From Phycisphaerae bacterium (GTDB taxonomy: Bacteria > Planctomycetota > Phycisphaerae > UBA1845), in assembly GCA_029260165.1 (NCBI GenBank), contig JAJDDT010000051.1:1-57255 (forward strand): a DNA stretch of 57,255 nucleotides. Reading direction: 5' to 3'. Below are positions 6,756 to 45,265 of the stretch, piece by piece. The position numbers and the translations under genes were made by a program. The notes under the pieces were generated by a model that saw nothing but the letters and a program-made list of their open reading frames with translations, had not been told where the DNA came from and searched no databases. The stretch's first letter is position 1; the number at the start of each line of letters is the position of its first letter.

Positions 6756-7487
6756 TCAGGCGACAAATCGAACGTCAAGGCTTCCGCGTGCCCAATCCAT
6801 CAATTGGCGATGCGTCAACGATTTCGCGTCGAGCACATGCTGGAAAAACCGGCTAATCCCGTTTTCGGTATCAACTTGAAAGACACGGGCAAGGGCATGT
6901 CTCAATCGTTCCTCTTTTCCATTGATTTCTCTTCGTTCGCGCTTGAGTCGGCCCTCGACGTGGATATCCCACAGCACACGGTACCTGTCGCGCTGAAGAT
7001 TTTGCTGTGATGGATCGCCGGAAAATGTTTCGCGCACATACCCGAACTGTTCATCCAACATGTCTGTCACATGCAAAAGATCGCGTCGCATCAGTTCGAT
7101 GAGCCTCCCGGTGTCGAGAAACGATTGCGGGCAGATTTGGAAAACGAGCGTCCTGCCAACGCGGTCTTCGCCGCCCTTGTTGCCTTGCACAAGCAACTCG
7201 GCAGATTGCGCTTTTTTTCTCGGTGCCTCCCGAACGACACATCGATCGACGAGTTCGCCGACCAGCGGTCTTTCTGCCAACAGCCCGGCAATCAACCGAT
7301 CGAACCCCAGCTTCGTGAAAAATTCGCGAAACACCGGCACAAACTCGCGTTGTCTGATCTCTTCATCGGGGATTTCGTAGAGATGATCAACGACCTGGTG
7401 CAGCTCACATTCCAGGCGATCGTCATTGCGTACCGCGAGGAAGACGGTCGTTTCAACGAGGGATTGTTCGTATTCAATCGTGACCAT
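6756..7487 (-). CDS. Unknown protein, last gene of molybdenum-enzyme operon
   Basis: A 243-residue soluble protein rich in Arg, Glu and Leu, with no signal peptide, cysteine pattern or membrane segment. Its ATG lies six bases after the stop of the TorD/NarJ-like gene, so the two are almost certainly cotranscribed. I do not recognise the family. Its position suggests an assembly factor or regulator for the enzyme encoded upstream, as seen for accessory genes at the end of nar- and nxr-type clusters; this is inferred from context only. About 200 bases without a gene separate it from the convergent radical SAM gene. Confidence 0.75.
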   Translation of the reverse strand: MVTIEYEQSLVETTVFLAVRNDDRLECELHQVVDHLYEIPDEEIRQREFVPVFREFFTKLGFDRLIAGLLAERPLVGELVDRCVVREAPRKKAQSAELLVQGNKGGEDRVGRTLVFQICPQSFLDTGRLIELMRRDLLHVTDMLDEQFGYVRETFSGDPSQQNLQRDRYRVLWDIHVEGRLKRERREINGKEERLRHALARVFQVDTENGISRFFQHVLDAKSLTHRQLMDWARGSLDVRFVA

Positions 7488-7493
7488 TTTTTG

Positions 7494-8315
7494 CTACCGA
7501 TTCCCGCTACCAGCTACGTCGGTGCCGAGCTGGACGAGCTGTTCATTCGTCTGTCCGTCGCCGCAACCGGTGGATGCACAGGAAATCTGCGTATCGAGCA
7601 GGGGATCGGGTGTCCGAAGTTCGAGCGTGGATGGTCCGGCATGAATATCGAAGTGGTTGCATTCCGCCTTGACGAAAGCATCCGCGAACCGGGCAAACGC
7701 GCCGAACAACCCATCAGCGTCGGCCTCCTCGACATGATGGGCGAACGCGGGCAACCAGCGAGCCAGATGATCTCGCAGGAATGTACGCTCCGCATCGAGG
7801 CAGACGTCGGCGTTTTCCTTGTCGCCATTTGCGTGTGCGTGCGCTTCCTTCGAGCACAAGGCGCTCATGAATTCGCATTCAGCCGCGATGTGGTCCGGTC
7901 GGCCGTTCGCTTCGCCGGCGATCTCCAAGCCGAACGCGCGGTAGAACCCGGCAAGATCAGCCAAGTCCGACGCCTGACGGATGATCTCGTTTCGACCATA
8001 CTCCATCTCATAAGTCGGGCACGCGCCGCGAACGGAGTGGCCAAAAAGGCTGTCGTATCGTTGCTGTGTCTCGCGATTTACGCTTTCGGAGCAGCCTGCA
8101 AGCGAAAACGCCGCCTTCTTCAAAAGTTGCAAGGTCGTTTCTATTTGTCCGTCGGGCGCATACAGTGCTTCGGGCCAGTGTTCCCATCTTCCGGGGTCGG
8201 CGAGCGCCGACAGGGCGTCTCGATTGGGGTATTGAAATCCGTATGCAACCAAGCCGTACGCGGCTGCACGCGCTTGTGCCGGTTCAAACTCTTTGACTGA
8301 TGGGGAGTAGGCCAT
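7494..8315 (-). CDS. TorD/NarJ-type molybdoenzyme chaperone
   Basis: An all-helical protein of 273 residues. I use the ATG at 8315, preceded by AGGA at seven bases, rather than a TTG six codons upstream. The pattern EFEPAQARAAAYGLVAYGFQYP at the N-terminus, the central ACPTYEMEYG segment and the acidic C-terminal half fit the TorD/DmsD/NarJ superfamily. These proteins bind the twin-arginine leader of the catalytic subunit and hold it until the molybdenum cofactor and Fe-S clusters are inserted. It sits directly downstream of the Fe-S subunit gene, as in other type II DMSO reductase operons. Cytoplasmic. Confidence 0.88.
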   Translation of the reverse strand: MAYSPSVKEFEPAQARAAAYGLVAYGFQYPNRDALSALADPGRWEHWPEALYAPDGQIETTLQLLKKAAFSLAGCSESVNRETQQRYDSLFGHSVRGACPTYEMEYGRNEIIRQASDLADLAGFYRAFGLEIAGEANGRPDHIAAECEFMSALCSKEAHAHANGDKENADVCLDAERTFLRDHLARWLPAFAHHVEEADADGLFGAFARFADAFVKAECNHFDIHAGPSTLELRTPDPLLDTQISCASTGCGDGQTNEQLVQLGTDVAGSGNR

Positions 8316-8339
8316 GTCCTGTTCCTGTCGCAACGCAAC

Positions 8340-9617
8340 TCAAATCGAGTTCTGGTGTTTAGCAGGTCGAATGTAAACGGGTTCCTCGACCTGGGTCCGG
8401 AAGATTTCCTTTCCACTGCGATTGAACGCGATGACCGTATCGTCGTACATCTCGTATTTTTTGCCGTTGCGCTCGGCTTCGTAGACCCTGGGGCCTTCCT
8501 TGATCTCGTATCGTGAGATGATCTGGTTGGAGCGGCGGTACAATTGCAGCACGGCGAGAAGCTCCCGGTCGGGGTTGCGATATCGCTCGACCGCCTGCGC
8601 TGCGCCTGGTCCAAACATCTGTTCGAGATAGGGCAGGGGAACCCATCGGGGCGGGACGTAGTAGCCGTTCGGCTCGGTGCCGAGCTGCGGGTAGAGTGGC
8701 AGAGCGACCTTGGCCACATGGACCATGTAATAGAGCGGGTTCTGACGATCTTCGATCCACGCGTTATCCTTGTCGACTTTCACCAGACCCTGCATACGCA
8801 CCTGTCCGATGCACGCGGCCATGCAGCGCGTCTCCATGGGCGAGCCACCCGTCTCCGGATCCTTACCTTCGACGCGCGGGTAGCATCCGATGCACTTTTC
8901 CGACGTTCGCGTGGTTCCGCGATAGAGTGACTTCTTGTAGGGGCAGGCCTCCACGCACTTGCGGTATCCGCGACACTCCTTCTGGTCGATCAGAACGATG
9001 CCGTCTTCCGGTCGCTTGTAAATCGCGGTTCGCGGACAGGCTGCGAGGCATGCGGGATACGAGCAATGATTACAAAGCCTGGCAAGATAGAAGAACCAGG
9101 CTTTGTGCTTTTTGCCGCCTGACAGTTCCTCACCTTTCCCGAAATCCATCGGTTTGGATTGACCGTGCTGAGGCGTGTCTTCATAGATGTTTGGAAAACG
9201 CCACTCCTCATCGGGCGGCAGGTAGCCCAGTACCTGATTCGGTTGGCTTCCGCGCGCGACGGCATGGGGTACCTCGAAAACGTTCTTTCCGGAAAACGTT
9301 CCGTACGGCTGTTTCGGATCGCCGTTGGGCGTACCGCTCCACTGTTGCTTTCCCGGATTGGCCTGCTCCAGTTTGTCCAGTATCTGCACATCCCAGTGCT
9401 GTGGATAGCCGCCGTACGGTTTGGTCTCAACGTTGGTCCACCACATGTGTTCCTGACCCTTGGCGAAGGTCCAGGTACTCTTGCATGCCATCGTGCACGT
9501 CTGGCAGCCGATGCACCGGTTGATGTTGATCACGAAGGCGAATTGTTCCTTCGGGGATGCCTGCTCATACGGATATTGCATCCCGCGACCCAGTTGCCAG
9601 TTATAGACGGATGGCAT
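8340..9617 (-). CDS. Fe-S (beta) subunit of NXR/type II DMSO reductase family enzyme
   Basis: A 425-residue electron-transfer subunit with four ferredoxin-type cysteine sets: Cys35/38/41/45, Cys182/185/190/194, Cys215/221/225, and Cys242/245/265/269. In the third set, the position that is Cys in [4Fe-4S] relatives is Tyr218 (ECRGYRKC), the arrangement that gives a [3Fe-4S] cluster in NarH-like proteins (where it is Trp). There is no signal peptide; such subunits are exported as partners of the Tat-tagged catalytic subunit. AGGAG lies eight bases before the ATG, overlapping the end of the preceding small gene. It passes electrons between the molybdenum subunit and the haem subunit. Confidence 0.9.
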   Translation of the reverse strand: MPSVYNWQLGRGMQYPYEQASPKEQFAFVININRCIGCQTCTMACKSTWTFAKGQEHMWWTNVETKPYGGYPQHWDVQILDKLEQANPGKQQWSGTPNGDPKQPYGTFSGKNVFEVPHAVARGSQPNQVLGYLPPDEEWRFPNIYEDTPQHGQSKPMDFGKGEELSGGKKHKAWFFYLARLCNHCSYPACLAACPRTAIYKRPEDGIVLIDQKECRGYRKCVEACPYKKSLYRGTTRTSEKCIGCYPRVEGKDPETGGSPMETRCMAACIGQVRMQGLVKVDKDNAWIEDRQNPLYYMVHVAKVALPLYPQLGTEPNGYYVPPRWVPLPYLEQMFGPGAAQAVERYRNPDRELLAVLQLYRRSNQIISRYEIKEGPRVYEAERNGKKYEMYDDTVIAFNRSGKEIFRTQVEEPVYIRPAKHQNSI

Positions 9618-9626
9618 GCTTTGCTC

Positions 9627-9953
9627 CTAGCTTTCCAGTATGGGAAGGCTGATCATCTGCTCGTTTTCCGACGATTCTGTCGCCGTCCTGTCCCTGCGAC
9701 CGCCCCAAAGGGGAAATAGTTCGTCGATGATGCGTCGAATCGCATCCTCGCCGAGCGTCTGGTACGCCAGGAACGGCCCGGCGTACCCTTTCGTCTGAAA
9801 CATCCTGAGTATGCGACCCGCATCGAACCCACCCCGGATGTATTCCTCCACGAAGCACTCGGCCATATCGCGCATGGCGGCGTCGTTCTCCGTTTCGACA
9901 ACAACACCGTGAAGGGTCATCGGATCAGTGGCATCGGGATCATCGTATGGCAT
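9627..9953 (-). CDS. Small unknown protein between alpha and beta subunits
   Basis: A 108-residue protein with start and stop tightly packed between the genes for the catalytic and Fe-S subunits. The core (HGVVVETENDAAMRDMAECF, then VEEYIRGGFDAGRIL, then KGYAGPFLAYQTLGEDAIRRI) looks like a small helical domain. I recall similar short proteins next to molybdopterin oxidoreductase genes, but no function. There is no export signal, so it is probably cytoplasmic. Its fixed place in the operon suggests a role in maturation or a small accessory subunit. Confidence 0.8.
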   Translation of the reverse strand: MPYDDPDATDPMTLHGVVVETENDAAMRDMAECFVEEYIRGGFDAGRILRMFQTKGYAGPFLAYQTLGEDAIRRIIDELFPLWGGRRDRTATESSENEQMISLPILES

Positions 9954-9956
9954 TAT

Positions 9957-12900
9957 TTACCCTTCCTCTTCTTCCTCTTCGTCCCGCCCACCGATGAAGC
10001 CGCCGGCGAGGTACCGCTTCATCACGTCGTTTTCATTGGCTGGTGACAACCCAGTGGTTGCCGGCTGCCAGATTCCCTTGCCGCCCAGACCGCCATCCTC
10101 GGCTTTGACCACGCGGACGAGGGTTTCCTTGGGCACTGTGTTGATCGCATGGTTGTCGGCTTCGCCTCCAAAGAAGAAGCCCATGTAGACTTTCTTCTTG
10201 TGGAAGAGTGTGTCGGTCTGGTGCATGGGCATATGCCAGTTTCTGGTCAGGCTCTGCTGCGATCCGTACCGCAGGTTTGCCTGGTAGCCATCTTTGGAAA
10301 GTGCCCGTCCGTCCTTGCGCGTCTCGTGCGCTTTGACGCTCTTTTCCGTCGCGATGTAGGGGGCGTGCTTCATCATGATCACGCTATAGGGATAGGCTGG
10401 GTTGTAGGTGACGCGCAACATGAGACGAGCCACCTTGTAGAATTCGTCGTCGGGTTTCCATCCGCGGTAAGGTCGGTCGGCTGGGTTCGCGTCAACGTGG
10501 ACATAATCCCCGTCGTTGATCCCCAAGTCCTTCGCCGCCTGCGGATTGATGTGAAGTTGGCTCTCGCCGACGTACGGTGACCGTCGATCCATGCGGTGCG
10601 GGTCGCCGAAATTGCTGTCGTAGATCATGTGCCAATCGACGTTGCTCCACTGCGAATGGACTTTGTGTCGGGTCTTCGGCGTCAGACAATAGAAACGGAA
10701 TCCCTTTTCCCACAGGAAGTTCTTGGTCTGTTTGACCTGCCGCCAGGGCATCTTCACGTTGCGAACGGTTCGATCGTCCCAGTGTTCGGCGTCTGTCGGA
10801 ATTCCGTAGTCCTCCGGACGAACAAGCGGATTGCTCGACACGATGACGTTGGGCAGGTACGGCGTCGCTTCCGGTCCCTCACGGTGGACGATGAAATTCT
10901 CCCCGTACTCGATGGCTTCGGGCACGTCGGTGTAGGCGTGCATGCGACCGGTGTCTGTGTGGAATGGCTCGTCGTCGTGAATCTGCTCCCAGAACGGTAT
11001 TCGTGGATACGTTCTAAAGAGCATCAACGCCGCTCCGGGAGGACCGTACCTGCCGGCCATGATGTCTTTGAGCTTGTATCCGATCGTGGTCGTGCATGTA
11101 TCCAATAAACGCTGAATATAGATACCGCGTTTGCCCTCGTGCTCGAATTTGAACATGTCGTAGCACCGGCGGTCGCCGATCTCTTCGCCTACTGCCCTGG
11201 CGATGTTTGCGAGTATGGTCAGATCGTCTTTGGAGTCGAACACCGGCTTGATGCCGCCCTTCCAGATTTGCAGGAAAGGGTTGGAACACGAGGCGGTCAT
11301 CTCCAGGTCCTCGAACTCGATCCAACTGTTGGCCGGCAACCCGATGTCGGCATACTGCACGGACGCCGTCATAACAATGTCCTGGGCAATGATCATCTCG
11401 ATGTTCGGGTTGACGTTCTTGAACATGTCGTAGGCATGCTTGGCGTTGTTAAACAAATTGACATTGTTGAAGTGCAGTGTCTTGGTCGGCGTCGGCATGT
11501 GCGTCTGACCGGTGAACACCTTGCGGCCCTTCGGCGTATCGACAATCAGCGGACGATCACCGTGATTCCAGTAGGCAGGCTCTTCGCCCTTGCAACGCGC
11601 CTTCACCTTAACGGCCTTGCCGGGCGCGTTTTCGTCAAGATTCAGGTCGAACGGATCCTCGGCCACCCATCCCTTGAAACCCGGTCCGGTGATCTTGCTG
11701 CCCTGGAACAATGCGGCTTTGTAGTTGCCCGCCCATGCATGAACACCGGCACCCTTTTTGCCGATGTTTCCGGTCAGCATCATCGGCAGATACGCGGCGC
11801 GATTGGCTTCGGTGGCGTGGAACCAGTGATTGATGCCCTCACCCTGATGAATCGCGACCGGCCCGCCGTTTTGCGTCGTTTCCCATATGTCCCGCGCCAG
11901 TCGCTCGATCATCTCCTTTGGCGAGTGCGTTATCTCCGCAACCGAATCGAGGTCGTAGTCCTTCAGATGCTCCTGATACATGGTCCAGACCGTCTGGACT
12001 TCCGTCTTCGTTCCATCGACGAGCGTGATCGTCCATTTGCCTTCCAGCGTTGGATCAACGCCCTTTTTGGTCATCCGGCCTCCGACTTCATCACGGGTCA
12101 GGGCCACAGGCTTGTTCGTCTTCGCATCCCAGACGACACGATCGCCGATGATGTCGTGTTGTTCCCCGGTCAGTCCCTGAACCTTGAAGCTCGGACCGTT
12201 TTTCGATAAATCACTCTTGTAGTCTGGAATGACCTCGTCGGCCCGGAGTCGCTGTAGATTGTCCGTCCGAACGAGCAGCGGGAAATCGGTGAACTCCTTG
12301 ACGAATTTCTCGTCGTACCATTTGTTGTCGATCATGTGGCGCGTGATGCCAAGAAACAGCGCCGCGTCGGTCTGTGGCCTGATGGGCATCCAGTAGTCCG
12401 CCTTGGTGCTCGGTGCCCCGTATTCCGGGGCGATGACCACGATGCGTCCGCCGCGTTCCATGCACTCGATGAACCAGTGCGAGTCGGTCATCTTGTTTTC
12501 GACCAGGTTCTTGCCGTTCATGATGATGAGCTTGCTGAACCGAAGGTCGTTGAAATCGCAATCGGAAGTCTGCAGCCCATGCACCCACGGATGCCCCGGA
12601 GCCTGGTCACCGTGCCAGGTGTAGTTGCTCCAGTTGCGACCACCACGGGCTTTGTCAGGACCAACTCCGCGAACGTGCGCGTCGAGCAACGCCATCGAGT
12701 TGTTCAGGCGATACATGCCGTATTTGCCGATGACGCCCAGCAACCCCATGCCACCGCGCATCTTGAACGTACGCGTGCCAGCCCCCTCCATGTCATCGAC
12801 CATCTCCTGAGGATACCCCTGCGCGAGAAGTTTTTTGGCACCGGCGTCACCACTGTACCGCCTGGCCACCGCGACGTACGCCCTGGCGATGTACGGGAAG

Positions 12901-13460
12901 ACATCTTTCCAACTGATTCGAACATGCTCATCCGTGCCGCGGGCGTCGAACTTGTATTTCGATCGATTGTTATCGATATCCAGATCGGGGTATCCCGCGT
13001 CCGCCCACGCCTTCCATCCCTTGCGGATGATCGGATGTTTCAAACGATAGGGGCCATAGATGATTCGGTGGAACGTGTAGCCTTTGGCGCACTGACGTGG
13101 GTTCCAGTTGGCGGTGGCTTTGTTGCCGTAGATATCCGCATAAGTTTGATGGTCGTACTGCGACCCCATGCGCGTGACGATCCCGTTGCGCGTGTAGGCC
13201 AATACGCGACACGAATGGGTATCATTCGGAGAGCAAACCCAACTGAACGTCCCGTCGTAGGCGTACTGATCGCGGTAGATCTTCTCCCAACCTCGCGTCG
13301 GGTAGAACGCAAGTGGATTGGCAATATCCGGGCGCGATGCGAGTGTTCTGAGCGGCCAACCCCAGGCGCTCGCGGCACCGATAACCGCACCGGTGGTTTT
13401 CAGGAAATCCCGTCGCGACGCGCCCTCGTGAGCAGGTCCATTGTTCTTGTTTTGCACCAT
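9957..13460 (-). CDS. Catalytic molybdopterin (alpha) subunit, NxrA-like, Tat-exported
   Basis: A 1167-residue molybdenum bis-MGD oxidoreductase. I start at the ATG at 13460 (GAGAG seven bases upstream), which puts the twin-arginine leader SRRDFLKTTGAVIGAA at residues 15-30; the longer frame adds seven residues. The proximal cluster region has Cys76, Cys84 and Cys124 in CSPNDTHSC...NPRQC. This spacing, followed by KGYTFHRIIYGPYRLKHPII, resembles nitrite oxidoreductase NxrA and periplasmic NarG-like enzymes. The SDCDFND segment (Asp300/Asp302) aligns with the region carrying the Mo-ligating Asp of type II enzymes. It ends in a run of glutamates. Periplasmic; the substrate (nitrite/nitrate or another oxyanion) cannot be decided from sequence. 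Confidence 0.9.
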   Translation of the reverse strand: MVQNKNNGPAHEGASRRDFLKTTGAVIGAASAWGWPLRTLASRPDIANPLAFYPTRGWEKIYRDQYAYDGTFSWVCSPNDTHSCRVLAYTRNGIVTRMGSQYDHQTYADIYGNKATANWNPRQCAKGYTFHRIIYGPYRLKHPIIRKGWKAWADAGYPDLDIDNNRSKYKFDARGTDEHVRISWKDVFPYIARAYVAVARRYSGDAGAKKLLAQGYPQEMVDDMEGAGTRTFKMRGGMGLLGVIGKYGMYRLNNSMALLDAHVRGVGPDKARGGRNWSNYTWHGDQAPGHPWVHGLQTSDCDFNDLRFSKLIIMNGKNLVENKMTDSHWFIECMERGGRIVVIAPEYGAPSTKADYWMPIRPQTDAALFLGITRHMIDNKWYDEKFVKEFTDFPLLVRTDNLQRLRADEVIPDYKSDLSKNGPSFKVQGLTGEQHDIIGDRVVWDAKTNKPVALTRDEVGGRMTKKGVDPTLEGKWTITLVDGTKTEVQTVWTMYQEHLKDYDLDSVAEITHSPKEMIERLARDIWETTQNGGPVAIHQGEGINHWFHATEANRAAYLPMMLTGNIGKKGAGVHAWAGNYKAALFQGSKITGPGFKGWVAEDPFDLNLDENAPGKAVKVKARCKGEEPAYWNHGDRPLIVDTPKGRKVFTGQTHMPTPTKTLHFNNVNLFNNAKHAYDMFKNVNPNIEMIIAQDIVMTASVQYADIGLPANSWIEFEDLEMTASCSNPFLQIWKGGIKPVFDSKDDLTILANIARAVGEEIGDRRCYDMFKFEHEGKRGIYIQRLLDTCTTTIGYKLKDIMAGRYGPPGAALMLFRTYPRIPFWEQIHDDEPFHTDTGRMHAYTDVPEAIEYGENFIVHREGPEATPYLPNVIVSSNPLVRPEDYGIPTDAEHWDDRTVRNVKMPWRQVKQTKNFLWEKGFRFYCLTPKTRHKVHSQWSNVDWHMIYDSNFGDPHRMDRRSPYVGESQLHINPQAAKDLGINDGDYVHVDANPADRPYRGWKPDDEFYKVARLMLRVTYNPAYPYSVIMMKHAPYIATEKSVKAHETRKDGRALSKDGYQANLRYGSQQSLTRNWHMPMHQTDTLFHKKKVYMGFFFGGEADNHAINTVPKETLVRVVKAEDGGLGGKGIWQPATTGLSPANENDVMKRYLAGGFIGGRDEEEEEEG

Positions 13461-13524
13461 GACATATCTCTCAAACCACAAGGCTCATCAAAAGCCCGTG
13501 TCGACCCTTGAACATTCGCGTCCG

Positions 13525-15276
13525 CTATTCAATCACCAGCTTCTGCCAGATGCTGATGTTCTTCTTTCCGTCACGATCGCCTGCGCTGCCGTTCCAGATG
13601 GCGAACGATACCGGGAGATAATCGCCTTTTCTAAAGATTCGTTCGCCGGCGTGATCTCCATCGGAAAAACTCATACGGCGACGCAGTTGCACCGACCAGA
13701 CCCCTCGTTCGTATACCGCCTGCCCCTGGACAAGTTGTGCACTCGCCGGTTTGCCCGACAGCGTTCCAGGACCACGGGCAACGAGACACTCAACGGGTGT
13801 CTTGAGATTCGGATCGGACACAAGGTTCCCAGCCCCCCACGCCGTCACGAATTGTGGATCATGCCTGGCGAGTATCTCGCGTGGCCAGGACATGAACGTG
13901 GCATGGTCCGCCGGACCTTCCTGCTCCGGGTACATGTCAACCGCACGATCCGGAAACGCGGCATCAACATCCTGGTGGCCGCTTTCGATATCTTTTTGGC
14001 GATCTGCCTTCCAATACCAGATGTTCACACCGCCGTGGTCACCGGCATCGCCCATATAGAACGGGGGATCACTCGACAGCGAGAACTGAATAGCCACACC
14101 GTCGCGAAACTCATCATGTCGAACAGCCCGCTCGTCCTGCGTGGGATCAAGCCACGACAATTTGATGGCCAATTCGTCGTTGTTGTGTAACGCCTGGACC
14201 ATCAGTCCTTCGACCCGATCCTCCGTCCACCACAGCGGAGTCAACGCTACATACAGGGGACGTGCCTGCGACCACGCGTTGTCTGTCGGGTTGGACGGGA
14301 GTTGCCCGCGGACGTTTGGTGCTACAAAGGTTCCCTGTTTGAGTTGGGCTCGCTCCTGAGCACCCGAACGGGCCAACGACTGAACATAGTGAATAATGTC
14401 CCACGTCTCATCGCCCGAATACAGGCCTTCCGACGCGGGCATCGGCGTTCCTTTCATGCCCTTCCAGATGCGCGCATAAAACTGGTGCCCGTCACTGCCG
14501 CCCTTGAAAATACCGTTGACAAATGAACGCGGCGGAACCGGGTATCCTTCGTTGTCGAACTTCACGGCATCCGCCACGGGGTGGCCGTCGGTGCCATGAC
14601 AACTGGCGCAATTTTCCAGATAAAGCCTTCGACCGCGAAACCAGTGGATTTCATCGAAAGCGGGTTCCGGCGGGACGACGAGTTGTTGGCCCGGCTGGGT
14701 CAGGCCTGCGAGCGTTTCGGGAAGCTCCGCTGCCTTCATCGAACCGTCGTTCACCCATGCCTGGAGTTTGTCCCTGATCCCGTCTTCATAGAACTGTCGC
14801 ACATACGTCGCTAAAGCTTGCAGGTCTGCGAGAGGAAGATGGTCCCAGGGCGGCATGGCTGACCCGGGCATTCCGCGACCGATCGTCCGAACGAGGTCCT
14901 CCCTGGTCGGGATCCGGTTCTGCGTCGTCGCCAGCTTGAAATCCCCCTGTCTGAAATCACGCGGGCGGGGGTTCATCAGGTAGGCAAACTTGCCTGCCCC
15001 ATCACCGTTGTCGCCGTGGCAGATCGTGCAGTACTTGGCATACAACGCACGACCACGGGTCAATCGCGGGTCATGATCGCGGGTGGAGGCTGCCTGAATA
15101 CGCGTGTCTTTTGACGCCCCACGCCGATCGGCGGATTCAATTTCCGAACCCGCGTTTGCCTGTGGGGCTGAACCGGATTCGCCCGCAGACGCAATGGCGA
15201 GAAAACAACAACACGGGGCGATCATGACCGCCACAAGACACATCCATCCACTCGACCGGTGATGCTTTTTTTTCAT
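13525..15276 (-). CDS. Di-haem cytochrome c fused to haem-b-type gamma subunit
   Basis: The first gene of the operon encodes 583 residues starting at an ATG with AAGGA seven bases upstream. A Sec signal peptide covers residues 1-31. Two cytochrome c domains follow: CTICH (Cys83, Cys86, His87) with a GMPGSAMPPW axial-Met loop, and CASCH (Cys223, Cys226, His227) with GMKGTPMPA. From about residue 315 to the end (NAWSQARPLYVALTPLWW... WNGSAGDRDGKKNISIW) it resembles the haem-b-binding gamma subunit of ethylbenzene dehydrogenase and NxrC. The product probably links the Fe-S subunit to periplasmic electron carriers. The ATG is followed by eight adenines, a possible slippage site. Confidence 0.88.
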   Translation of the reverse strand: MKKKHHRSSGWMCLVAVMIAPCCCFLAIASAGESGSAPQANAGSEIESADRRGASKDTRIQAASTRDHDPRLTRGRALYAKYCTICHGDNGDGAGKFAYLMNPRPRDFRQGDFKLATTQNRIPTREDLVRTIGRGMPGSAMPPWDHLPLADLQALATYVRQFYEDGIRDKLQAWVNDGSMKAAELPETLAGLTQPGQQLVVPPEPAFDEIHWFRGRRLYLENCASCHGTDGHPVADAVKFDNEGYPVPPRSFVNGIFKGGSDGHQFYARIWKGMKGTPMPASEGLYSGDETWDIIHYVQSLARSGAQERAQLKQGTFVAPNVRGQLPSNPTDNAWSQARPLYVALTPLWWTEDRVEGLMVQALHNNDELAIKLSWLDPTQDERAVRHDEFRDGVAIQFSLSSDPPFYMGDAGDHGGVNIWYWKADRQKDIESGHQDVDAAFPDRAVDMYPEQEGPADHATFMSWPREILARHDPQFVTAWGAGNLVSDPNLKTPVECLVARGPGTLSGKPASAQLVQGQAVYERGVWSVQLRRRMSFSDGDHAGERIFRKGDYLPVSFAIWNGSAGDRDGKKNISIWQKLVIE

Positions 15277-19178: not shown

Positions 19179-22100
19179 CTATGGCAAATCACCGGTAAAG
19201 GATCGCTGGAACACGCTCCAGTCGACCAGATCGATATCGCCATCGCCGTCGAAATCGCTGCACGCACAGTTTCCAAGCAACGGTCCACCGGCAGGTCCGG
19301 TTTCACAGTTGGCCAGGTTTGCAAAGTCAGCCAGATCGAAGTCGCCGTCGTTGTCGCAATCGCCGGTACTGTCGGCGACGACGTTAAGCGTCACATTGCC
19401 CACATTGTAGATGACATCGAACCGGGTTCCGCCAAGAGCGGCGCCGGTGACGTTTAAGAACGTGCCGAAACCGACGGCGTGGTTCATGATAACGAACGAG
19501 TCGCCGACCGATGGCGCGAATCCGTTGATGACCCGGATGTCCAGCGTGCCATTGAGGAACGCGTTGTCCGACACGTTGAGGACGTCGTGCTCCGTACCCG
19601 CCGTCAACCCACCGATTTCGACACGGAGAACGCCGTTGACCGTCTGCGTGTAGTCGCCAACGATGTCGATAACGCCCGGAGACGCGCCCGGTTCAAACGC
19701 TCCGCCATTGGTCACGTCAGCCGTGATCATTCCATCACCCGTCACGATACCACCCTGAATGTTGATGTTGCTGTTGCTACCGAGTGTTCCACCATCCAGA
19801 ATCGTCGCCCCGGCATTCTGGCGATAACCGGCGCCGTTGAATTGCATGGATCCGTTTTGAAGCCGGAGAATGCCGTTATTGATGAACCTCGCAGAAACGG
19901 CTTGATTGGCTGCGCCAAGTTTGTTGTAGGTGCCGTTGTTGACGAACTGAGGCGTCCCGCCATTGGTGGTGATACTGCCATCCGACTCCGCGTCAAACGT
20001 GCCGTTGTTGTGGAATTCGACGCGATTCTGCAACCGCAAATGAGCGGCATTACCGACAAACGTGACGGTTTGCTCGGATTGGAACACGCGGTCGCCCCCA
20101 AGCTGGAAGAACCCGTCAATCTGGACGTCGCCGTTGGCGCGGGTGGTCCAGGGTACGCCGCCTTCAGTCGACATCGTTCCACCCGAAATCAGTGAGGGAC
20201 CGTTGATCGTCAGTCCGCTGCTGGAACCCGTGAACGTGCCGCCTGTCAGCGTGAAGGAGCTTACCTCCGCCGATTCACCACTACTGAGATTCAGAACACC
20301 GGCACCAATGGTCAGGCTGTCGCCGATATTGACGAGGTTGGCGGGCGGGTTGAAGTTGAGCGTACCATTGGTCAGCGTCAAATCCTGCCCGCACTCGAAC
20401 AACCCATTGACGTCCGTGGATCCGCCGGTCACGCTGAGATTTGCGATGTTCACGGTGCTCGCGGATTCCAACACATGATTGCCGGTGCTCAATTGCAGCG
20501 TGCCGTTGGGACTGCTTCCAATATCGCCCCGATTGGTCAGACCACCGCCCGAAAACGAGAGTATTCCATCGTTAACGTTCACTTGACCGTTGTTGACATA
20601 GGCAATGGAAATTGGCTGCACATTGGGACCGTTCTTGTTGTACGCGCCATTGTTCACAAATGCGCTGTCACCACCCGTACCGGAGTCCATCCTGCCATCC
20701 GCGTTGGCGTCAAAAGTCCCGTCGTTGATGAACACAGCGTCGTTGTTCACGCGTAACCAGGCCTGAGCACCGGTCATCGTCGTTGTCGATTGGCTGACAA
20801 ACGTTCGGTCACCGGACAGGGTGAAAAACCCGTCGATCGTCGCGTCACCCCGGGCAGTCGTTGTTACAGGATTACCACCACTGCTGCCCATGGTTCCGCC
20901 CGATAACATCGACGTTCCAACAACGTCGAGGGAGCTTGTCGCACCGGCGAGTATCCCTCCGGTTTGCAACAGCGTTTGAACCGTCTGACCTGGTCCGGTG
21001 TTGATGTTCAACGTGCCGCTCCCGATCTCCAGATTGCTGCCGAGACTTGCAAGATTGGCGACCGGGTTGATGTTGAGCGACCCCCCGCCAATACGGGTCG
21101 TTCCCGACACCGTGTAAGAGCCGTTCACGTCCACGGTCCCCGTGACGACGGTCAGATTGGGAACGTCAATCAACGAGGATGGCAGAAAAGTGTGTGCGCC
21201 GCCGCTGAATTGCAGCCTCGCGTCATTGAGACCGTTCACGCTGCCCGTGCTGGTCAACCCGAGTCCGCCAAACGCCAGCGTCCCGTTGGTCACGTCGATT
21301 TGACCTGAGTTGTCGAATTGCACCGAGATATTCTGCACATTGGGGCCCAACTTGTTGTAGCTCCCCAGGTTGTCAAACGAACCGTTGCCTCCGCTTCGGT
21401 CAATGGGCCCGTCGCTTTGCGCGTTGAAAGTGCCCATGTTGCGAAACGCCGCATTGTTGTTAATCCGAAGCCACGCGGGCGTTGTTTCAAACGTCGCGGT
21501 TCCAATATTGTTAAATGTCCGGTCGCCAGCCAGGATCACGAACCCCTGAATCGTCGTGCTGCCCTGGGCATTGGTCGTCAGTTTCGCATTGTCGGACGTC
21601 GTCATCGTTCCGCCGTTCCACACCACCGGACCCGCCACGTCAACCTGACCACTGCTTCCGGTAAACGTCCCGCTCTGCTGGGTGTACTCGGTGACCGAAA
21701 CGCCCTCGCCGCAACTAACGTCCATGATCCCACCGGCGAGAGTCAACGCGTCGCCGACATCGACGAGCGTCGCCGTCGGCTGAAACGTCAGCGTCCCCGT
21801 GTTGATGCGTGTGCTCTCGGTCGCTTCAAATGTGCCGAAGACGTCGGTCGTTCCGCCCGTCACGAGCAAATTGGCGATATCCGTGTTGGACCCGAAATCG
21901 AGAGACGAATTGCTTCCGCTCGATTGCATGGTGGTACCCGCCGCGCCGACAATGCCCGCGTTGTTGACGACCCCATCGATCGAAAAATGGAGCGTCCCGC
22001 TGTTGATGTTCAACGTATCGTTGTTCTCGAAGAGCACGCCGATTCGCTCCACATCGTTGCCGTTCTTGTTGAAAACACCGTTATTGACGAATCGGCCCGT

Positions 22101-24860
22101 CCCGCCGGAGCGGTCAATCGTCCCATCCTGAAGCGTGGTGAACGTCCCCGTATTCGTAAACATGGCCCCTTCGCGCAATCGCAACCAGGCCTGGTTCGTC
22201 GTCATTTGACCTGAACCGTTGTTGACTGCGTTTCGCGCTCCCGCGAGCGTGACGAATCCTTCGATATCGAGTCCACCGTTCATCTGCAAGTCAGAGGGAG
22301 TCATCGGATCAAGCGTTTGAATCGTTCCGCTCGACCAGCCCATCTGACCTTCGACCGTGATGTCACCAGAACCGCTCATCACACCACCAGTCATGGTGTA
22401 GTCGTCGAAAAAGGCAGCATTGTCAGCTATGTTCATCGTGCCACCGCTCATGAAAAACGGCTCATAACAACCCAGGCTCAGGATGTCTGTCGTGCCGGAT
22501 TGAAACGTGTGCTCCACCAGCAGCGACAAGGGCCCCTCCTCGATGCAGACGTTGTCATTGGGACCCGGCGGCATACCATCACGCCAGTTCGTCGCAACAT
22601 GCCAACCGCACATTTGCACACCCAGGGGTGGCGGACCGGTGGTGCATGCGTTCCACAAGGCGAAATTCAACCCCTCGCACTCGTCAGGAACCAGGTTGAC
22701 GTTGCAATCGCTGCTGTTTCCGCCATCAATATCGCACGAATCAGGATTCACATTGGCGTTGCAGTCGGACGCCATACCACAGTCCGCGACGTTGCAGAAT
22801 CCGCCAAACGCGGCGCAATTCACCTCGCAAACATCAACGATCCCGTTCCCGTTGCATTCGGTGATCTCAAACGGTCCGAACGACGACCATTCTGTGCTCC
22901 AATTCCCCAGACAGTCGCGCGCTCGCAGACTGATAAACAGCGTTGAACCAACGGGTATCGGGGGACTGTCGGAAGTCGTGACGCCAAGGATATCAGCCGT
23001 GAAATCAGGCTCGAGCGGACTGGTCGCCCATACGATCGAATAGTCTTCCGCGCCCGAAGCGTCGTCGGGAGCGTGCGTCCAATCAACCGTGACCACCGGC
23101 AACGTCCCGCCGGTTCCCATCGGATGAGTCGGCGAATTGAGCTGCTGTACAATCCCCGGCGGATCATTATCAGGCCAAACAAATGCGTTGCCGCCAATGC
23201 TGTTGGCAGTCCGCCACAAACCCGGAGCATTTTCCGGAAATCGCACACGAAAAGCGCTGATAAACTCAAGAATGTTGACAGGCTGATCAAGCCGAACGAC
23301 CTGGAATATTTCATCAACACCCAACGCCAGCGAGTCGCTCGCGCACAATGGCTGGGTGTCCTGCACGCCGTCGTTGTCGGCATCCTCGCCGGTATCTTCA
23401 ATATCGCGGCACAGCGCGCCTGCGAATCCCTCCGTGATCAGCGGATTGGCGAATTGATTATCCTGAGAACAGGGCCGGAGCGCCTCCTGTGGACGCGTGT
23501 TAATCGACGCATAATCCGCCAATTCCCCCGACGCATACGCTCGCGTCACGACGTCCGCCAACCAGTTGGGCCAACCCTCATTCCATGCGTCATGGTCGTT
23601 TTCCGGACACCACATGCAGTGACCACAACCGTTGGTGTCACAGAATCCGTTGCAATAATCAGGGCCTGGGTTCTGCGAATGATTTTCCAGATAATGATGA
23701 CCATACTCGTGCGTGTGCGTGTCTTCCCGCCACTCCCGATCCACGCCAATGTGAATCTCTTCAAAAAAGGTGTTGTACCACGCGCCGGAATCCTCGGGCC
23801 ACTGCACGTCCACCTGCTCCACATCCGTCCCGTCACGAGACAGAATAAACTGGTGTGCCTTCGTAATACTGTTGTGAATATGAGTGGCTGGATTGGTATC
23901 CATACCATCTGACGCGGGCAGCAACGTGCCGAAGTTGATGGCTGACCCGGTAAAGTCGTCCATGGATTCATCCGACGTACTCCAACTGTATTCAATTTCG
24001 AGAATGTCGGTGGACTGCACCTTGACGATGTCGGTGTCCGCTTCAAACTCGATGTAGATGTCCGGACAATCGCACCCGAAAATGTCGCAATCGTCCCAGA
24101 CAAAGTTGGCCGAAAAATCACCGTTGCGGTCGGTCTCGCCTTCAAACATAGTCTCCCCGCCGACGAGATCGTCATCGACGATGCGGAAGGCGATGCTGTC
24201 AACGGGCGTGCATTGACCCGCTCCGGTGCAGTCCTCACCCGTGCGCTCATAAACGAATCGACCGCTGATCGCGAGACTCATGTTGGAACATTCACCACCG
24301 CTGGCAGCGTCAGGTCCCTGGTCGATCAGTCCGATGCGTGCTCTCCCGATCAATTCCACGGGCCTGGTTCCAGGCAACCATTGCAGGGGAAAACCGCGTT
24401 CGCGCTTCGCGACGTAGTCTTCGCCAATGAGCAATTCCTTCGCGATGGTCTGTCCGTTCCAGTCGAACGAAAGCATCAATGGTTTCTCTGCGTCGTCCGG
24501 AGTGGCGCGAAGCAACATGGTGATGGACTCACCCCGTTTCGCGTCAATCCGATTCCGTGAGTCGATGCGTTCGACCTGCCAACCGTCCCCGGCGGCAGTT
24601 ATCCGACTCAGTTGACCGTCTTCCGGAATCAGAATCTCAATTTGTGTCTCAAACGGCTGCCCCGACCTGGCAGGAGTAAAAGATGCGTGGTCGATGCGGA
24701 CTTTCGGAAAAACACGAACATCCGCCTGTGAAAACGGTCCGCCAAGTGCTGCCACCAGCACCGTCGCCCAACAGATGTTTCGCACAATTCTACCTGTTGA
24801 GTTGTCCAGGTCTTCGACTGTCGGGTGGAACTTTGCAGACTTTTCCTGCTGTGTCATCAT
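19179..24860 (-). CDS. Large secreted metalloprotease-like repeat protein with dockerin-like tail
   Basis: The frame is open from 25160, but I start at the double ATG at 24860; a signal peptide (IVRNICWATVLVAALGG) then lies near the N-terminus of a 1893-residue product. A zinc-protease motif HEYGHH lies in a cysteine-containing domain, followed by a fibronectin III-like segment and short Cys/Asp/Asn repeats (DCNANVNPDSCDIDGG). Most of the protein is a series of at least four long repeats, each with NNGTF, a DRSGG or similar turn, YNKLG and INxGTL-type strands, as expected for a right-handed beta-helix. The end (GDCDNDGDFDLADF... DFDGDGDIDLVDW) is a dockerin-like calcium-binding pair. Probably a cell-surface or extracellular protein. 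Confidence 0.85.
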   Translation of the reverse strand: MMTQQEKSAKFHPTVEDLDNSTGRIVRNICWATVLVAALGGPFSQADVRVFPKVRIDHASFTPARSGQPFETQIEILIPEDGQLSRITAAGDGWQVERIDSRNRIDAKRGESITMLLRATPDDAEKPLMLSFDWNGQTIAKELLIGEDYVAKRERGFPLQWLPGTRPVELIGRARIGLIDQGPDAASGGECSNMSLAISGRFVYERTGEDCTGAGQCTPVDSIAFRIVDDDLVGGETMFEGETDRNGDFSANFVWDDCDIFGCDCPDIYIEFEADTDIVKVQSTDILEIEYSWSTSDESMDDFTGSAINFGTLLPASDGMDTNPATHIHNSITKAHQFILSRDGTDVEQVDVQWPEDSGAWYNTFFEEIHIGVDREWREDTHTHEYGHHYLENHSQNPGPDYCNGFCDTNGCGHCMWCPENDHDAWNEGWPNWLADVVTRAYASGELADYASINTRPQEALRPCSQDNQFANPLITEGFAGALCRDIEDTGEDADNDGVQDTQPLCASDSLALGVDEIFQVVRLDQPVNILEFISAFRVRFPENAPGLWRTANSIGGNAFVWPDNDPPGIVQQLNSPTHPMGTGGTLPVVTVDWTHAPDDASGAEDYSIVWATSPLEPDFTADILGVTTSDSPPIPVGSTLFISLRARDCLGNWSTEWSSFGPFEITECNGNGIVDVCEVNCAAFGGFCNVADCGMASDCNANVNPDSCDIDGGNSSDCNVNLVPDECEGLNFALWNACTTGPPPLGVQMCGWHVATNWRDGMPPGPNDNVCIEEGPLSLLVEHTFQSGTTDILSLGCYEPFFMSGGTMNIADNAAFFDDYTMTGGVMSGSGDITVEGQMGWSSGTIQTLDPMTPSDLQMNGGLDIEGFVTLAGARNAVNNGSGQMTTNQAWLRLREGAMFTNTGTFTTLQDGTIDRSGGTGRFVNNGVFNKNGNDVERIGVLFENNDTLNINSGTLHFSIDGVVNNAGIVGAAGTTMQSSGSNSSLDFGSNTDIANLLVTGGTTDVFGTFEATESTRINTGTLTFQPTATLVDVGDALTLAGGIMDVSCGEGVSVTEYTQQSGTFTGSSGQVDVAGPVVWNGGTMTTSDNAKLTTNAQGSTTIQGFVILAGDRTFNNIGTATFETTPAWLRINNNAAFRNMGTFNAQSDGPIDRSGGNGSFDNLGSYNKLGPNVQNISVQFDNSGQIDVTNGTLAFGGLGLTSTGSVNGLNDARLQFSGGAHTFLPSSLIDVPNLTVVTGTVDVNGSYTVSGTTRIGGGSLNINPVANLASLGSNLEIGSGTLNINTGPGQTVQTLLQTGGILAGATSSLDVVGTSMLSGGTMGSSGGNPVTTTARGDATIDGFFTLSGDRTFVSQSTTTMTGAQAWLRVNNDAVFINDGTFDANADGRMDSGTGGDSAFVNNGAYNKNGPNVQPISIAYVNNGQVNVNDGILSFSGGGLTNRGDIGSSPNGTLQLSTGNHVLESASTVNIANLSVTGGSTDVNGLFECGQDLTLTNGTLNFNPPANLVNIGDSLTIGAGVLNLSSGESAEVSSFTLTGGTFTGSSSGLTINGPSLISGGTMSTEGGVPWTTRANGDVQIDGFFQLGGDRVFQSEQTVTFVGNAAHLRLQNRVEFHNNGTFDAESDGSITTNGGTPQFVNNGTYNKLGAANQAVSARFINNGILRLQNGSMQFNGAGYRQNAGATILDGGTLGSNSNINIQGGIVTGDGMITADVTNGGAFEPGASPGVIDIVGDYTQTVNGVLRVEIGGLTAGTEHDVLNVSDNAFLNGTLDIRVINGFAPSVGDSFVIMNHAVGFGTFLNVTGAALGGTRFDVIYNVGNVTLNVVADSTGDCDNDGDFDLADFANLANCETGPAGGPLLGNCACSDFDGDGDIDLVDWSVFQRSFTGDLP

Positions 24861-25239
24861 GATTTTCCCGCACTTCCTTTCCGTGGCCGCCCCATCGGTG
24901 ATCCAACTCCCGCCGGCAGTGATCTCGCGCCCTGGTGAAGTGACGCAACCGCCCCACCTCCAAAGGCGACAGACAGCGGCAAAAAGGGAAGTGAATTCCG
25001 GGAAATTGCGGCAATGACTCAAAAACGCGGAAAACATTGGCTGCCCCTCCTGAAAGCATCGTATGACTTCAACCGTGTGCGGTGTTTTTCGAATAGAAGA
25101 GGTGGTTGGACCGTTTCGAGGCAGGGTTTGAGGGAGTTGGCGATGGCCTCGACTTCGCAAGGTGTGTGGCTACAGGAAGCTGAGTCGTTTGCGAACCATG
25201 TTGCATACGAACCCGAAAAGCCGCCTGGAACATGTGACG
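24861..25239. other. Intergenic region left of the integration site
   Basis: The spacer lies between the start of the large secreted protein (minus strand) and the decayed integrase. Open frames on both strands lack start signals and recognisable domains. It should contain the promoter of the large protein, but I cannot place it. Confidence 0.4.
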
Positions 25240-34000: not shown

Positions 34001-34084
34001 CTTTTCAAGCTCTTGAATCGCATTCCAGGGATCACCGGCGACCGAAACCCACCATGTCTTGTCTAGGTCATTATGCCAAAACAT
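31031..34084 (-). CDS. Cysteine-rich zinc-metalloprotease-like protein, probably 5'-truncated
   Basis: Of 1017 residues, roughly positions 103-480 hold about 90 cysteines, mostly as CC pairs in short repeats (TCCNGSC, QTCCGGTCV, ECCNEGQICC), reminiscent of granulin-like disulfide stacks. A beta-rich region follows, and the C-terminal domain has HELVHFLLNNSPANNDH with a downstream NLMFP turn, the metzincin-like HExxHxxxxxxxxH plus Met-turn arrangement. Such a protein must be exported to fold, yet there is no signal peptide: the frame is open upstream into the truncated integrase, and PADTFTMFWHND just before and after the ATG looks like the interior of a protein. The true 5' end seems lost at the junction near 34.11 kb. 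Confidence 0.72.
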   Translation of the reverse strand: MFWHNDLDKTWWVSVAGDPWNAIQELEKAGASFKELDTDSAFLEYVAYVGDTDDPATTFFWDTLTSGTFNKVPAGLAEYVTVDIDWYGDFGGGGVFPPEEGFCCKAILLPSDQCQKVICPPFCPEFKPQSKDADGLYCPFDDVCVECVLCCENCCGNECCDEPNKTCCNGSCVTQSSCRVCCPSPIGCKPLGTECCQGRAEACLPGEHCCETSGCCDDGTSCCEGSDGTMDCCVDGQETCCDGQCIPDCTQCCGDDCCNGNDNQFCCVGPDGNKECCNEGQICCNGICEAPGGECCEDSFPEHYCPVDTGCCSLGNGEFDCCLESDRCCEEGCKPDCERCCEPNCCASEQTCCNQQCWPEGMCCSGDPEFFCPTDTTCCGNGECCTTGQTCCGGTCVEDCDQCCHDVCIPFDAECCDEPGHFCLGKTSTGGEFDQTCCSDTCCTEDRDCCEVKCCAKGFMCCDNACVPFTCSLISIESGVSACRNGTVELEFRGSCLPSCSGFMEVRVLEQPENAVVTILDQIPCDGEEHIGRLQVMTAVDIPLEPIGFTLINRRQTCSFAVELGVEQIGKIFWPNRNGGPPIEFQTVVCVNQDDDDGNGTEDRFEAPFVEGENNLIPFWLLGPPPHVNTDAGVFKVSLGGQSNRLRFFKGLDAMPVVLPIDSSVDGPPFGSYWVEGFSSSDTEGDLVLTLQYEDDIRICRDVMKITSFDAGLETITSGVNPLPVNPAIISPVFIPLADGTNFTDGNRFELIRPFPELRLADYPFEWTLSMTSGQIDPQHMLDQSPDLKSVNVRFPFLSAGNAGEANVSIEIAGTECAPARTLVGNTIIVPLRVHLCWVANGATTVRTAAQIRALIDDVNILLSQTGIQVSIDSVVSTQVWAELMDLDTTITLNLNMWLLFGAVHDPDAVDIYFINSIDPGPGGGATAGITGNPSMSGPIFNSGIVIADSTADGPLIGQPAVRTIAHELVHFLLNNSPANNDHVGEIRNLMFPVTDAEKRDLTEEQAAEMRRDMDVE

Positions 34085-44474: not shown

Positions 44475-45265
44475 CAGACACCCACTCCGTCCCAAACATC
44501 GAATTGCGCGACGTTTCGTTCGCTTTCAGCGGTCCAAACGTTTTGGACGCGGTCGACCTGACCATAGGCCAACGCGATCTGGTCTGCATCATCGGGCCCA
44601 ACGGCGGTGGTAAGACCACACTGCTGCGTCTCATCCTGGGCTTGCTCATACCCAACACCGGCTCGATCAAGGTTCTCGGTTCGACACCCAAAAAGAGTCG
44701 CCACCGCATCGGGTACATGCCGCAACACACGCGACTGGACCCGCAATTTCCGGTTACCGTCCGCGACGTCGTTCTGATGGGCCGACTCGGACTCGCGCCG
44801 TCCGCCGGTCCGTTCCGCTCAATCGATCACGACGCCGCAGACGCCGCCCTCAAACGACTCGAACTGCTCGACCGCCGCGACGACTCCTTCGCCGCACTCT
44901 CAGGAGGCCAACGTCAACGCGTTCTTATCGCACGCGCGCTCGCCTGCGAACCGAAAATCCTGCTGCTCGACGAGCCGACCGCCAACCTCGACCTCCCCAT
45001 CCAACGCGATCTTTACGATCTTCTCCGCGAATTCGCCAGGGAATTCACCGTCGTCCTCGTCTCGCACGACGTTGGCTTCGTTTCAGATTTCGTCAGGAGC
45101 GTCGTTTGCGTTAATCGAACCGTTCGCGTCCACGAAACCAACCAACTGACCGGCGACGTCATGTCTGACGTCTACGGCAGGGACGTGCGTATGGTGCATC
45201 ACGATCACGATCATCACCACGACCAGGATCAGGGCCGAGACCAAATTGGGCACCGCCATGACTGA
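44471..45265 (+). CDS. znuC: Zinc ABC transporter ATP-binding protein
   Basis: A 264-residue ATPase with Walker A GPNGGGKTT, signature LSGGQRQRVLIARALA, Walker B ILLLDEPTANLD and the switch His in VVLVSHDVGF. Its start overlaps the znuA stop by four bases. The C-terminus is a histidine/aspartate-rich tail (VHHDHDHHHDQDQGRDQ and GHRHD) that could bind zinc and feed back on transport. It powers ZnuB in the cytoplasmic membrane. Confidence 0.93.
   Translation: MTDTHSVPNIELRDVSFAFSGPNVLDAVDLTIGQRDLVCIIGPNGGGKTTLLRLILGLLIPNTGSIKVLGSTPKKSRHRIGYMPQHTRLDPQFPVTVRDVVLMGRLGLAPSAGPFRSIDHDAADAALKRLELLDRRDDSFAALSGGQRQRVLIARALACEPKILLLDEPTANLDLPIQRDLYDLLREFAREFTVVLVSHDVGFVSDFVRSVVCVNRTVRVHETNQLTGDVMSDVYGRDVRMVHHDHDHHHDQDQGRDQIGHRHD

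Follow-up and report, generated by a model that had tools for sequence, protein, structure and literature searches.

Which reaction would be catalysed, and by what route would electrons leave, in a molybdenum-enzyme operon that pairs a catalytic subunit resembling NxrA with a multihaem protein and has no gene for a membrane anchor? Such an operon lies at positions 6756-15276 of the minus strand of contig JAJDDT010000051.1 from a Phycisphaerae bacterium (assembly GCA_029260165.1), the full 57,255 nucleotides of which are referred to here as the window. It consists of six open reading frames (ORFs), described as packed in an initial annotation made from the DNA letters, with intergenic gaps of 3-43 bases. 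We consider it rather probable that these genes encode a nitrite oxidoreductase (NXR) of the periplasmic kind known from anammox bacteria and Nitrospira, soluble and with a three-haem gamma subunit as its electron outlet; this assessment covers the whole reading, including the mechanism and the ancestry set out below.

Subunits of the operon

The alpha subunit (9957..13481, minus strand, 1174 residues) matches the Molybdopterin family PF00384 and carries a twin-arginine translocation (Tat) signal, recognised by TIGR01409 at 17.0 bits (cut-off 16.7) and by PF10518 at 19.7 bits, under the cut-off of 22.7. Its best match in the PDB is NXR-A of Kuenenia, with 1761 bits over residues 22-1163; the next are 4ydd (183 bits), which we take to be PcrA, EbdA (153 bits) and NarG (106-112 bits). 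The earlier description of a Tat-exported, NxrA-like protein is borne out by these matches. A plasmid search with alpha returned 12 records, every one below 60% identity.

The site predicted to hold molybdenum, as the bis-molybdopterin guanine dinucleotide (Mo-bis-MGD) cofactor, and the iron-sulphur cluster FS0 includes the motifs CSPNDTHSC and WHGDQ. In Kuenenia NXR-A numbering, which we use throughout for alpha, the window protein keeps Cys67, Asp71, Cys75 and the fourth Cys, so that FS0 has three Cys and one Asp as ligands, together with the substrate residue Asn70 and the Mo-ligand Asp275. The roles of these residues, and ligation of FS0 by Asp as an NXR trait, are taken from PMC8387239 (papers are given by PubMed Central number, each cited for the part of its text available to us).

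The beta subunit (8340..9617, minus strand, 425 residues) matches a 4Fe-4S dicluster family. It aligns over its full length with NXR-B (564 bits; EbdB follows with 202), and Kuenenia NXR is thus the best PDB match of both alpha and beta. Fifteen Cys, counted by eye, are shared in the full-length alignment to 7b04_A, in agreement with the expected three 4Fe-4S clusters and one 3Fe-4S cluster; the NarH-like Fe-S subunit of the initial annotation is accordingly of NxrB type. A TorD/NarJ-type chaperone (7494..8333, minus strand, 279 residues) is identified, again as annotated, by PF02613 over its cut-off; TIGR03482 also matches, under its own.

A fused gamma subunit

The gamma subunit (13525..15276, minus strand, 583 residues) begins with a Sec-type signal and matches three families, Cytochrome_CBB3, Cytochrom_C and EB_dh PF09459 (80 bits, cut-off 33). 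The N-terminal half contains two c-type cytochrome domains with CxxCH motifs at C83-H87 and C223-H227. Its best PDB match is the dihaem chain 6h5l_B (121 bits), presumably a Kuenenia structure. The C-terminal domain, at about residues 333-572, is of the NXR-C/EB_dh b-haem type and matches NXR-C (7b04_C) at 71 bits and the gamma chain of ethylbenzene dehydrogenase (EBDH) at 42 bits, which makes Kuenenia NXR the second-best PDB match of gamma.

Across an alignment of 14 rows, Met141, Met279, Met408 and Lys572 do not vary. The first two are likely the distal c-haem ligands, and Met408 and Lys572 align with Met155 and Lys305, the b-haem ligands of Kuenenia NXR-C. This Met/Lys pair is kept in 76/76 grouped gamma rows (the 77th row, L166, is ungrouped). 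Gamma is therefore predicted to carry two c haems and one b haem, and the proposed three-haem fusion holds as a prediction.

A Kyte-Doolittle scan finds the N-terminal signal-like stretch as the only hydrophobic one in gamma, with no C-terminal membrane helix. No membrane-anchor gene is present among the six genes, and NarI, looked for within the operon, was not found there. The soluble periplasmic enzyme with its own c-type outlet that had been suggested fits this sequence evidence. Across the whole host genome EB_dh has a single match, the fused gamma.

Occurrence of the cassette

We wondered whether the fusion is peculiar to this genome. Scanning genome contigs with the gamma alignment gave 490 pattern stretches, of which 346 encode relatives, and this excludes a fusion unique to the host. 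The counts that follow rest on the best 80 of these 346 places, which lie in metagenome-assembled genomes (MAGs) where binning errors are possible. Both CxxCH motifs are present in 79/80 (the exception, L075, is cut), alpha lies at most 300 bases downstream of gamma in 77/80, and all six genes stand in the window's order in 48 of the 52 loci that extend at least 6.8 kb past gamma (the exceptions are L061, L083, L121 and L129). The conservation of the CxxCH pair, the alpha adjacency and the gene order argues that the six-gene set is not a product of chance. Titles of the best 80 name Planctomycetota, Sumerlaeota, Omnitrophota, Deltaproteobacteria, Methylomirabilota, KSB1, Acidobacteria, Hydrogenedentota, Rokubacteria, Gemmatimonadetes, Neomarinimicrobiota and one Aromatoleum, about ten phylum names overall.

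At E <= 1e-100, and with the host's own genome counted, alpha was found in 70/294 genomes of the phylum and 40/298 of the class; 13 of the class matches, again including the host, belong to the window's family, and one same-genus genome shown has none. Occurrence within the class is patchy. Loci taken around alpha in the phylum genomes had a two-CxxCH gamma in 17/20; of the others, L041 showed no gamma, L043 only a fragment, and L042 a gamma with the b-haem domain alone. L042 is identified with Kuenenia by its three subunits, which have exactly the lengths and bit scores of the 7b04 chains. The nearest named relatives are Phycisphaerae/Planctomycetota MAGs, in line with the planctomycete origin that had been surmised (the phylum includes Kuenenia), and several named relatives carry OFTM MAG names as in PMC10732223.

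A further lineage comprises ten loci with 41-47% alpha identity, in seven of which the order is alpha-beta-gamma. Nine have a gamma without CxxCH (hereafter b-only), and in L159 none was found. In one Methylomirabilota locus, L116, the NXR cassette adjoins relatives of kustd1708, kustd1711 and kustd1712 (bd-like) together with a 940-residue gamma-like ORF with three CxxCH motifs.

Relationship to anammox NXR

Two points go beyond the initial annotation: across the widespread cassette a fused gamma is the rule, and a related protein with two c haems occurs in anammox bacteria. In the Kuenenia NXR cluster, a 535-residue protein with two CxxCH motifs and EB_dh is encoded about 5 kb past NXR-C, and by gene order it is the 'diheme' protein kustd1709 of the PMC6423088 table. 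Proteins of the same description are the alternative NxrC (alt_NxrC) of Nitrospina (PMC3578206) and alt_NxrC_2 of N. moscoviensis (PMC6606698). The full-length fused-gamma profile gives the Kuenenia alt_NxrC 361 bits and NXR-C 180. By hydropathy scan, a hydrophobic stretch near the C-terminus is present in 10/10 anammox alt_NxrC copies and in 0/80 fused ORFs (L051-L130).

Alpha phylogeny was the check proposed for this locus, and it was carried out in part. A quick 80-row tree contained 35 of the 80 named loci, the window, 12 and 18 further planctomycete rows, 9 anammox rows and 5 outgroup rows, some with a long N-terminal read-through trimmed; a careful tree used 36 of those 80 rows and was rooted on b-only relatives. 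The alpha trees have no PcrA, EbdA, SerA or DdhA rows, and the alpha, EB_dh and c-haem trees no Nitrospira or Nitrospina rows. L159 and L166, the latter with one CxxCH and a long branch, were grouped as 'other'. The window's alpha and anammox NxrA share a clade, from which E. coli NarG, a NarG-like row of haloarchaeal origin and a ClrA-like row encoded beside a chlorite dismutase stand apart. Together with the PDB scores, this rules out placement in an unrelated dimethyl sulphoxide (DMSO) reductase clade. Residues at FS0 follow the same groups: Asp71 is kept in 53/55 fused-gamma rows (the other two have Cys), 9/9 anammox, 9/9 b-only and 2/2 'other' rows; in the outgroup, E. coli NarG and Haloferax have His67/Cys71, the ClrA-like row Asn67/Cys71 and Halobaculum Cys67/Cys71, and the Natronococcus row has no letters at these positions of the alignment.

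The 80-row tree groups the anammox rows as a single clade (100) that lies among the fused-gamma rows, with L045 and L046 next to it. The 36-row tree encloses anammox with fused rows at nodes supported at 100/100, 97/95, 99/95 and 98/95, and the fused rows stand alone on one side of a branch in 0/200 bootstrap trees. Forcing them together costs 128 log units (approximately unbiased test, p-AU 4e-83, for a group defined after the first tree was seen). The tree of the c-haem domain, in which the lack of an outgroup makes the attachment point informative and the nesting not, attaches anammox alt_NxrC next to L045 (97/90), as alpha does.

Three results speak against a fused ancestor for the anammox form. 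When the comparison is restricted to the EB_dh domain, NXR-C (179 bits) ranks ahead of alt_NxrC (128 bits) under the fused profile; L046, neighbour of anammox in the alpha tree, is placed elsewhere in the c-haem tree; and a branch of the EB_dh tree (95/84, 96% of 200 bootstraps) parts all 55 fused gammas from NXR-C, alt_NxrC, b-only and outgroup proteins, so that, as far as the b-haem domain is concerned, anammox is not nested within the fused forms. From that branch and the profile ranking one could argue that anammox NXR-C and alt_NxrC did not descend from the window's type of gamma at all, their b-haem domains having come from the b-only lineage and alt_NxrC having gained its cytochrome part independently. 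We regard this as possible but on the unlikely side, given the 361 bits of alt_NxrC to the full-length profile, the attachment of its c-haem domain beside L045, the placement of anammox alpha beside L045/L046 (98/95) inside the fused rows with rejection of the fused-together constraint, and the long branches and weak root split (69/29) of the EB_dh tree itself. The disagreement could reflect replacement of the b-haem domain or a tree artefact; both are possible. Alpha and the c-haem domain thus favour an anammox form descending from a fused ancestor and the b-haem domain does not, and within its clade the fused three-haem gamma is probably older than the anammox type, a form of it surviving as alt_NxrC beside the b-haem NXR-C.

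A bolder extension is conceivable, and we hold it only tentatively, as less likely than not. The fused three-haem gamma would be the original electron outlet of the whole NXR clade, and the NXR of anammox (and, via transfer, of Nitrospira and Nitrospina) would have arisen when gamma was split or doubled, giving NXR-C as a small soluble protein and alt_NxrC as one held in the membrane. The latter would hence be a true, interchangeable gamma, docking on alpha-beta and passing electrons to the respiratory chain, and large, mostly uncultured groups of Planctomycetota, Acidobacteria, Omnitrophota, Rokubacteria and others would be nitrite oxidisers or nitrate reducers with such a self-wired soluble enzyme. 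A Planctomycetota origin of the nxr genes of Nitrospirota and Nitrospinota has been proposed (PMC10203281), and the NXR-A tree of PMC12758564 includes two non-anammox planctomycetes that are not monophyletic with anammox.

Host metabolism and proposed function

The host genome comprises 4.43 Mb in 119 contigs and has a listed completeness of 100%. Its single COX1 match resembles CtaD most (587 bits, cut-off 671) and is assigned to an aa3-type oxidase. Nearby are genes of cytochrome b type, one for a protein in which at least eight CxxCH motifs occur, and one for a kustd1699/1713-like protein. Queries from the kustd1699 and kustd1713 positions match L138:3293-4117 of the host genome, near the aa3-type oxidase genes, at 88 and 90 bits; the protein encoded there is possibly of a shared electron-carrier type.

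PF00384 has four matches in the genome: the NXR, a NapA-like protein, an FdhF/YdeP-like protein and one in a cluster that is complex I-like by eye. The NapA-like protein matches NCBIfam NapA at 311 bits, under the cut-off of 904, and its best PDB match is 2jio (238 bits), which rules out that it is ActB of an alternative complex III. Its cluster (L141:6968-14810) includes a cytochrome b, a cytochrome with ten CxxCH motifs and, by eye, a Rieske-like neighbour. In a second cluster (L183:9019-13560), genes for NrfD, Fe-S and tetrahaem proteins accompany an octahaem HAO/ONR-like protein whose closest match is 4qo5 (183 bits); the cluster possibly encodes a quinol-linked nitrite or hydroxylamine reductase. 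The view that the genome has no other nitrate-linked enzyme fell once the NapA-like identity was recognised, and the two clusters are further candidates for nitrate or nitrite reduction. There is one NirA/Sir-type gene, and no match in the genome for NrfA, NirK, RuBisCO or Prismane/CODH (CODH/Hcp). All this fits a facultative, probably heterotrophic host, potentially capable of nitrite oxidation with oxygen or of nitrate reduction.

The subunit make-up, cofactor ligands, alpha clade, kept gene order and lone EB_dh protein are well established as far as sequence can establish them; complex formation, haem order, the soluble state, the partner and the export routes beyond the signals are what we infer. 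In the mechanism that we propose, alpha and beta would fold in the cytoplasm with the chaperone (probably also with the two small cassette proteins described below) and exit jointly via Tat, and gamma would be exported via Sec and receive its haem in the periplasm. The Mo-bis-MGD site of alpha would oxidise nitrite (or reduce nitrate). Electrons would run from Mo through FS0 and the four clusters of beta to gamma, there reaching first the b haem and then the two c haems. The c haems would replace the separate acceptor that the anammox core enzyme needs. Electrons would then exit to a soluble cytochrome c or cupredoxin and on to the aa3-type oxidase or a cytochrome b/multihaem complex.

Which way would the enzyme run in this host? 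Substrate and direction were a matter of inference in the initial annotation, and direction remains one. The enzyme class is reversible and works in both directions; Kuenenia NXR-ABC, isolated from the soluble fraction, runs both ways (PMC8387239). We judge net nitrite oxidation under oxic conditions somewhat likelier than respiratory nitrate reduction. The opposite duty, to which we would give a little less than an even chance, is respiratory: the host would be a heterotroph and facultative anaerobe, and the enzyme its periplasmic nitrate reductase, supplied with electrons by c-type cytochromes or by a complex of the cytochrome bc type. Besides the reversibility of NXR, this accords with the anaerobic growth of Thermogutta terrifontis with nitrate (PMC5673643), whose NarG falls in the NXR-containing clade of PMC10732223, and with the order UBA1845 of the Phycisphaerae, to which the window likely belongs and in which narGH and norBC are widespread and full terminal oxidases few (PMC11266412). 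Several observations weigh against nitrite oxidation in particular. The genome has no RuBisCO and no CODH/Hcp match, so that lithoautotrophy of the host, judged by these genes, is no more than a possibility; and Cys-triad Rrf2 genes directly upstream of gamma in a number of relatives, with NnrS near a few, suit respiration of nitrate or nitrite linked to nitric oxide (NO) equally well. A point against the main reading more generally is that no match to NXR-T turned up in the 80 related loci, in the window or in those stretches of the host genome that were searched. Against a nitrate-reducing duty stands the NapA-like enzyme already in the genome. The genome moreover has no NirK or NrfA match and only the single COX1 match, and so no second, NorB-like one. 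The high-potential b haem and His/Met c haems expected in gamma would suit export to an oxidase, and an aa3-type oxidase is present.

Nitrite oxidation by an NXR also has to be set against quite different chemistry, with chlorate, selenate, arsenite, a hydrocarbon or another compound as main substrate, as in other type II DMSO-reductase enzymes. Family models of this type match alpha, beta, gamma and the chaperone, each under its own cut-off, and gamma shares its EB_dh domain with EBDH. Such a substrate is nevertheless very improbable: alpha matches NXR-A at 1761 bits, 4ydd at 183 and EbdA at 153, keeps the Mo-ligand Asp, Asn70 and the FS0 Asp, and falls in one clade with anammox NXR.

Probable assembly proteins, regulators and neighbouring genes

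The two remaining cassette genes encode u108 (9627..9953, minus strand, 108 residues) and u243 (6756..7487, minus strand, 243 residues). They were rightly called unknowns, the window copies having no Pfam or NCBIfam match over cut-off (u243 weakly matches DUF3097_N, E 0.05). Predicted models have a mean predicted local distance difference test score (pLDDT) of 83.9 for u108, a four-helix model, and 94.5 for u243, and a PDB search limited to E <= 0.001 matched neither. The Kuenenia protein at the kustd1701 position is a homologue of u243 (88 bits) and itself has no Pfam match. The u243 alignment consensus has a C-terminal CPxC...CxxC pair, perhaps the 'putative zinc finger' of PMC3578206; the window copy stops before it. 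The proteome table of PMC6423088 gives values for kustd1700, kustd1703 and kustd1704 and none for kustd1701 and the chaperone kustd1702, blanks that would suit assembly factors and not subunits. Both u108, which is likely cytoplasmic, and u243 are probably assembly factors that act with the chaperone.

Near the cassettes of relatives, Rrf2-type genes form a cluster of 27, 26 of them with a Cys triad by a loose pattern, and a gene with this pattern stands directly upstream of gamma in L085 and a number of other relatives; the regulator could sense Fe-S clusters or NO. Radical-SAM genes, MoaA-like by eye, occur near the cassette in 18 relatives, and an NnrS-type cluster has six members. None of these three clusters has a member within the first 26 kb of the window. 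The operon itself is flanked by unrelated genes: a Ser/Thr kinase with tetratricopeptide repeats on one side, and radical SAM/SPASM and glycosyltransferase-like genes on the other.

Elsewhere in the window, the ORFs at 19179-25160 (1993 residues) and 31031-34084 (1017 residues) matched neither Pfam nor NCBIfam families at the thresholds applied. Positions 44000-57255 show strong strand asymmetry (GC skew to -0.38, AT skew to +0.34) across a 1272-residue ORF with degenerate repeats (51709-55527) and an Ig/BNR-domain protein (47631-50006), and direct repeats of 248 nt and 228 nt lie near these skewed ORFs.

Comparison with known systems

NXR in non-anammox Planctomycetota is already known (PMC10732223, PMC12758564). 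The new element here is the setting, a six-gene cassette that is both conserved and widespread and whose self-contained gamma, with three predicted haems, may be the ancestor of the split form in anammox bacteria; a literature search, which did not cover supplements and many journals, found no description of a cassette with a fused three-haem protein as sole gamma. The electron exit of NXR and the role of alternative NxrC in nitrite oxidisers were left open in PMC6606698 and PMC8026999. The cassette simplifies that question, as it offers a single gamma with three predicted haems, to which the search of the genome revealed no rival. Should this gamma bind alpha-beta, alt_NxrC would become a likely and testable partner of NXR in anammox bacteria and nitrite oxidisers. 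Operons labelled narGH and lacking narI in such genomes may likewise be fused-gamma NXR cassettes, which would make the absence of narI an annotation marker.

Among distant relatives, the E. coli NarGHI system shares the alpha-beta-chaperone plan and membership of the DMSO reductase family. The window operon differs from it in having no NarI, a Tat signal, an EB_dh-type haem gamma, and Cys67/Asp71 in place of the FS0 His. Ethylbenzene dehydrogenase and chlorate reductase are type II enzymes with a periplasmic alpha-beta-gamma plan and a b-haem gamma. Their alpha subunits are distant from that of the window, and the matched EBDH gamma chain, of 214 residues, aligns to the C-terminal domain only. 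For EBDH this plan is also described in PMC3578206. The NXR of Planctomycetota MAGs (PMC10732223) belongs to the same alpha family; that paper treats NxrABC as a putative membrane-bound set, and the fused three-haem gamma and the six-gene cassette go unmentioned in its available text.

The closest system is Kuenenia NXR-ABC (kustd1700/1703/1704; PDB 7b04), with full-length homology of alpha and beta, the FS0 Asp, the Met/Lys b-haem domain of gamma, and a cluster that includes a chaperone and a kustd1701-type protein. Its gamma, however, has the b haem only (322 residues, no CxxCH) and is joined by NXR-T, whereas the window's cassette has no NXR-T and fuses two c-haem domains to gamma. The host genome has no separate, b-haem-only NXR-C of the anammox kind, its sole EB_dh match being the fusion.

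Alt_NxrC of anammox, Nitrospira and Nitrospina resembles the window's gamma in combining two c-haem motifs and EB_dh in one protein, and differs from it in the near-C-terminal hydrophobic stretch of all ten anammox copies, which the window protein lacks. Neither is the genomic setting the same. The neighbours of the window's operon are a kinase gene and a radical SAM gene, and L116 alone among the 80 related loci has a kustd1712-like gene within the DNA examined around the cassette; Kuenenia alt_NxrC, by contrast, sits with bd-like oxidase and cytochrome genes and exists besides a separate NXR-C, while the window's fused gamma is the only gamma found.

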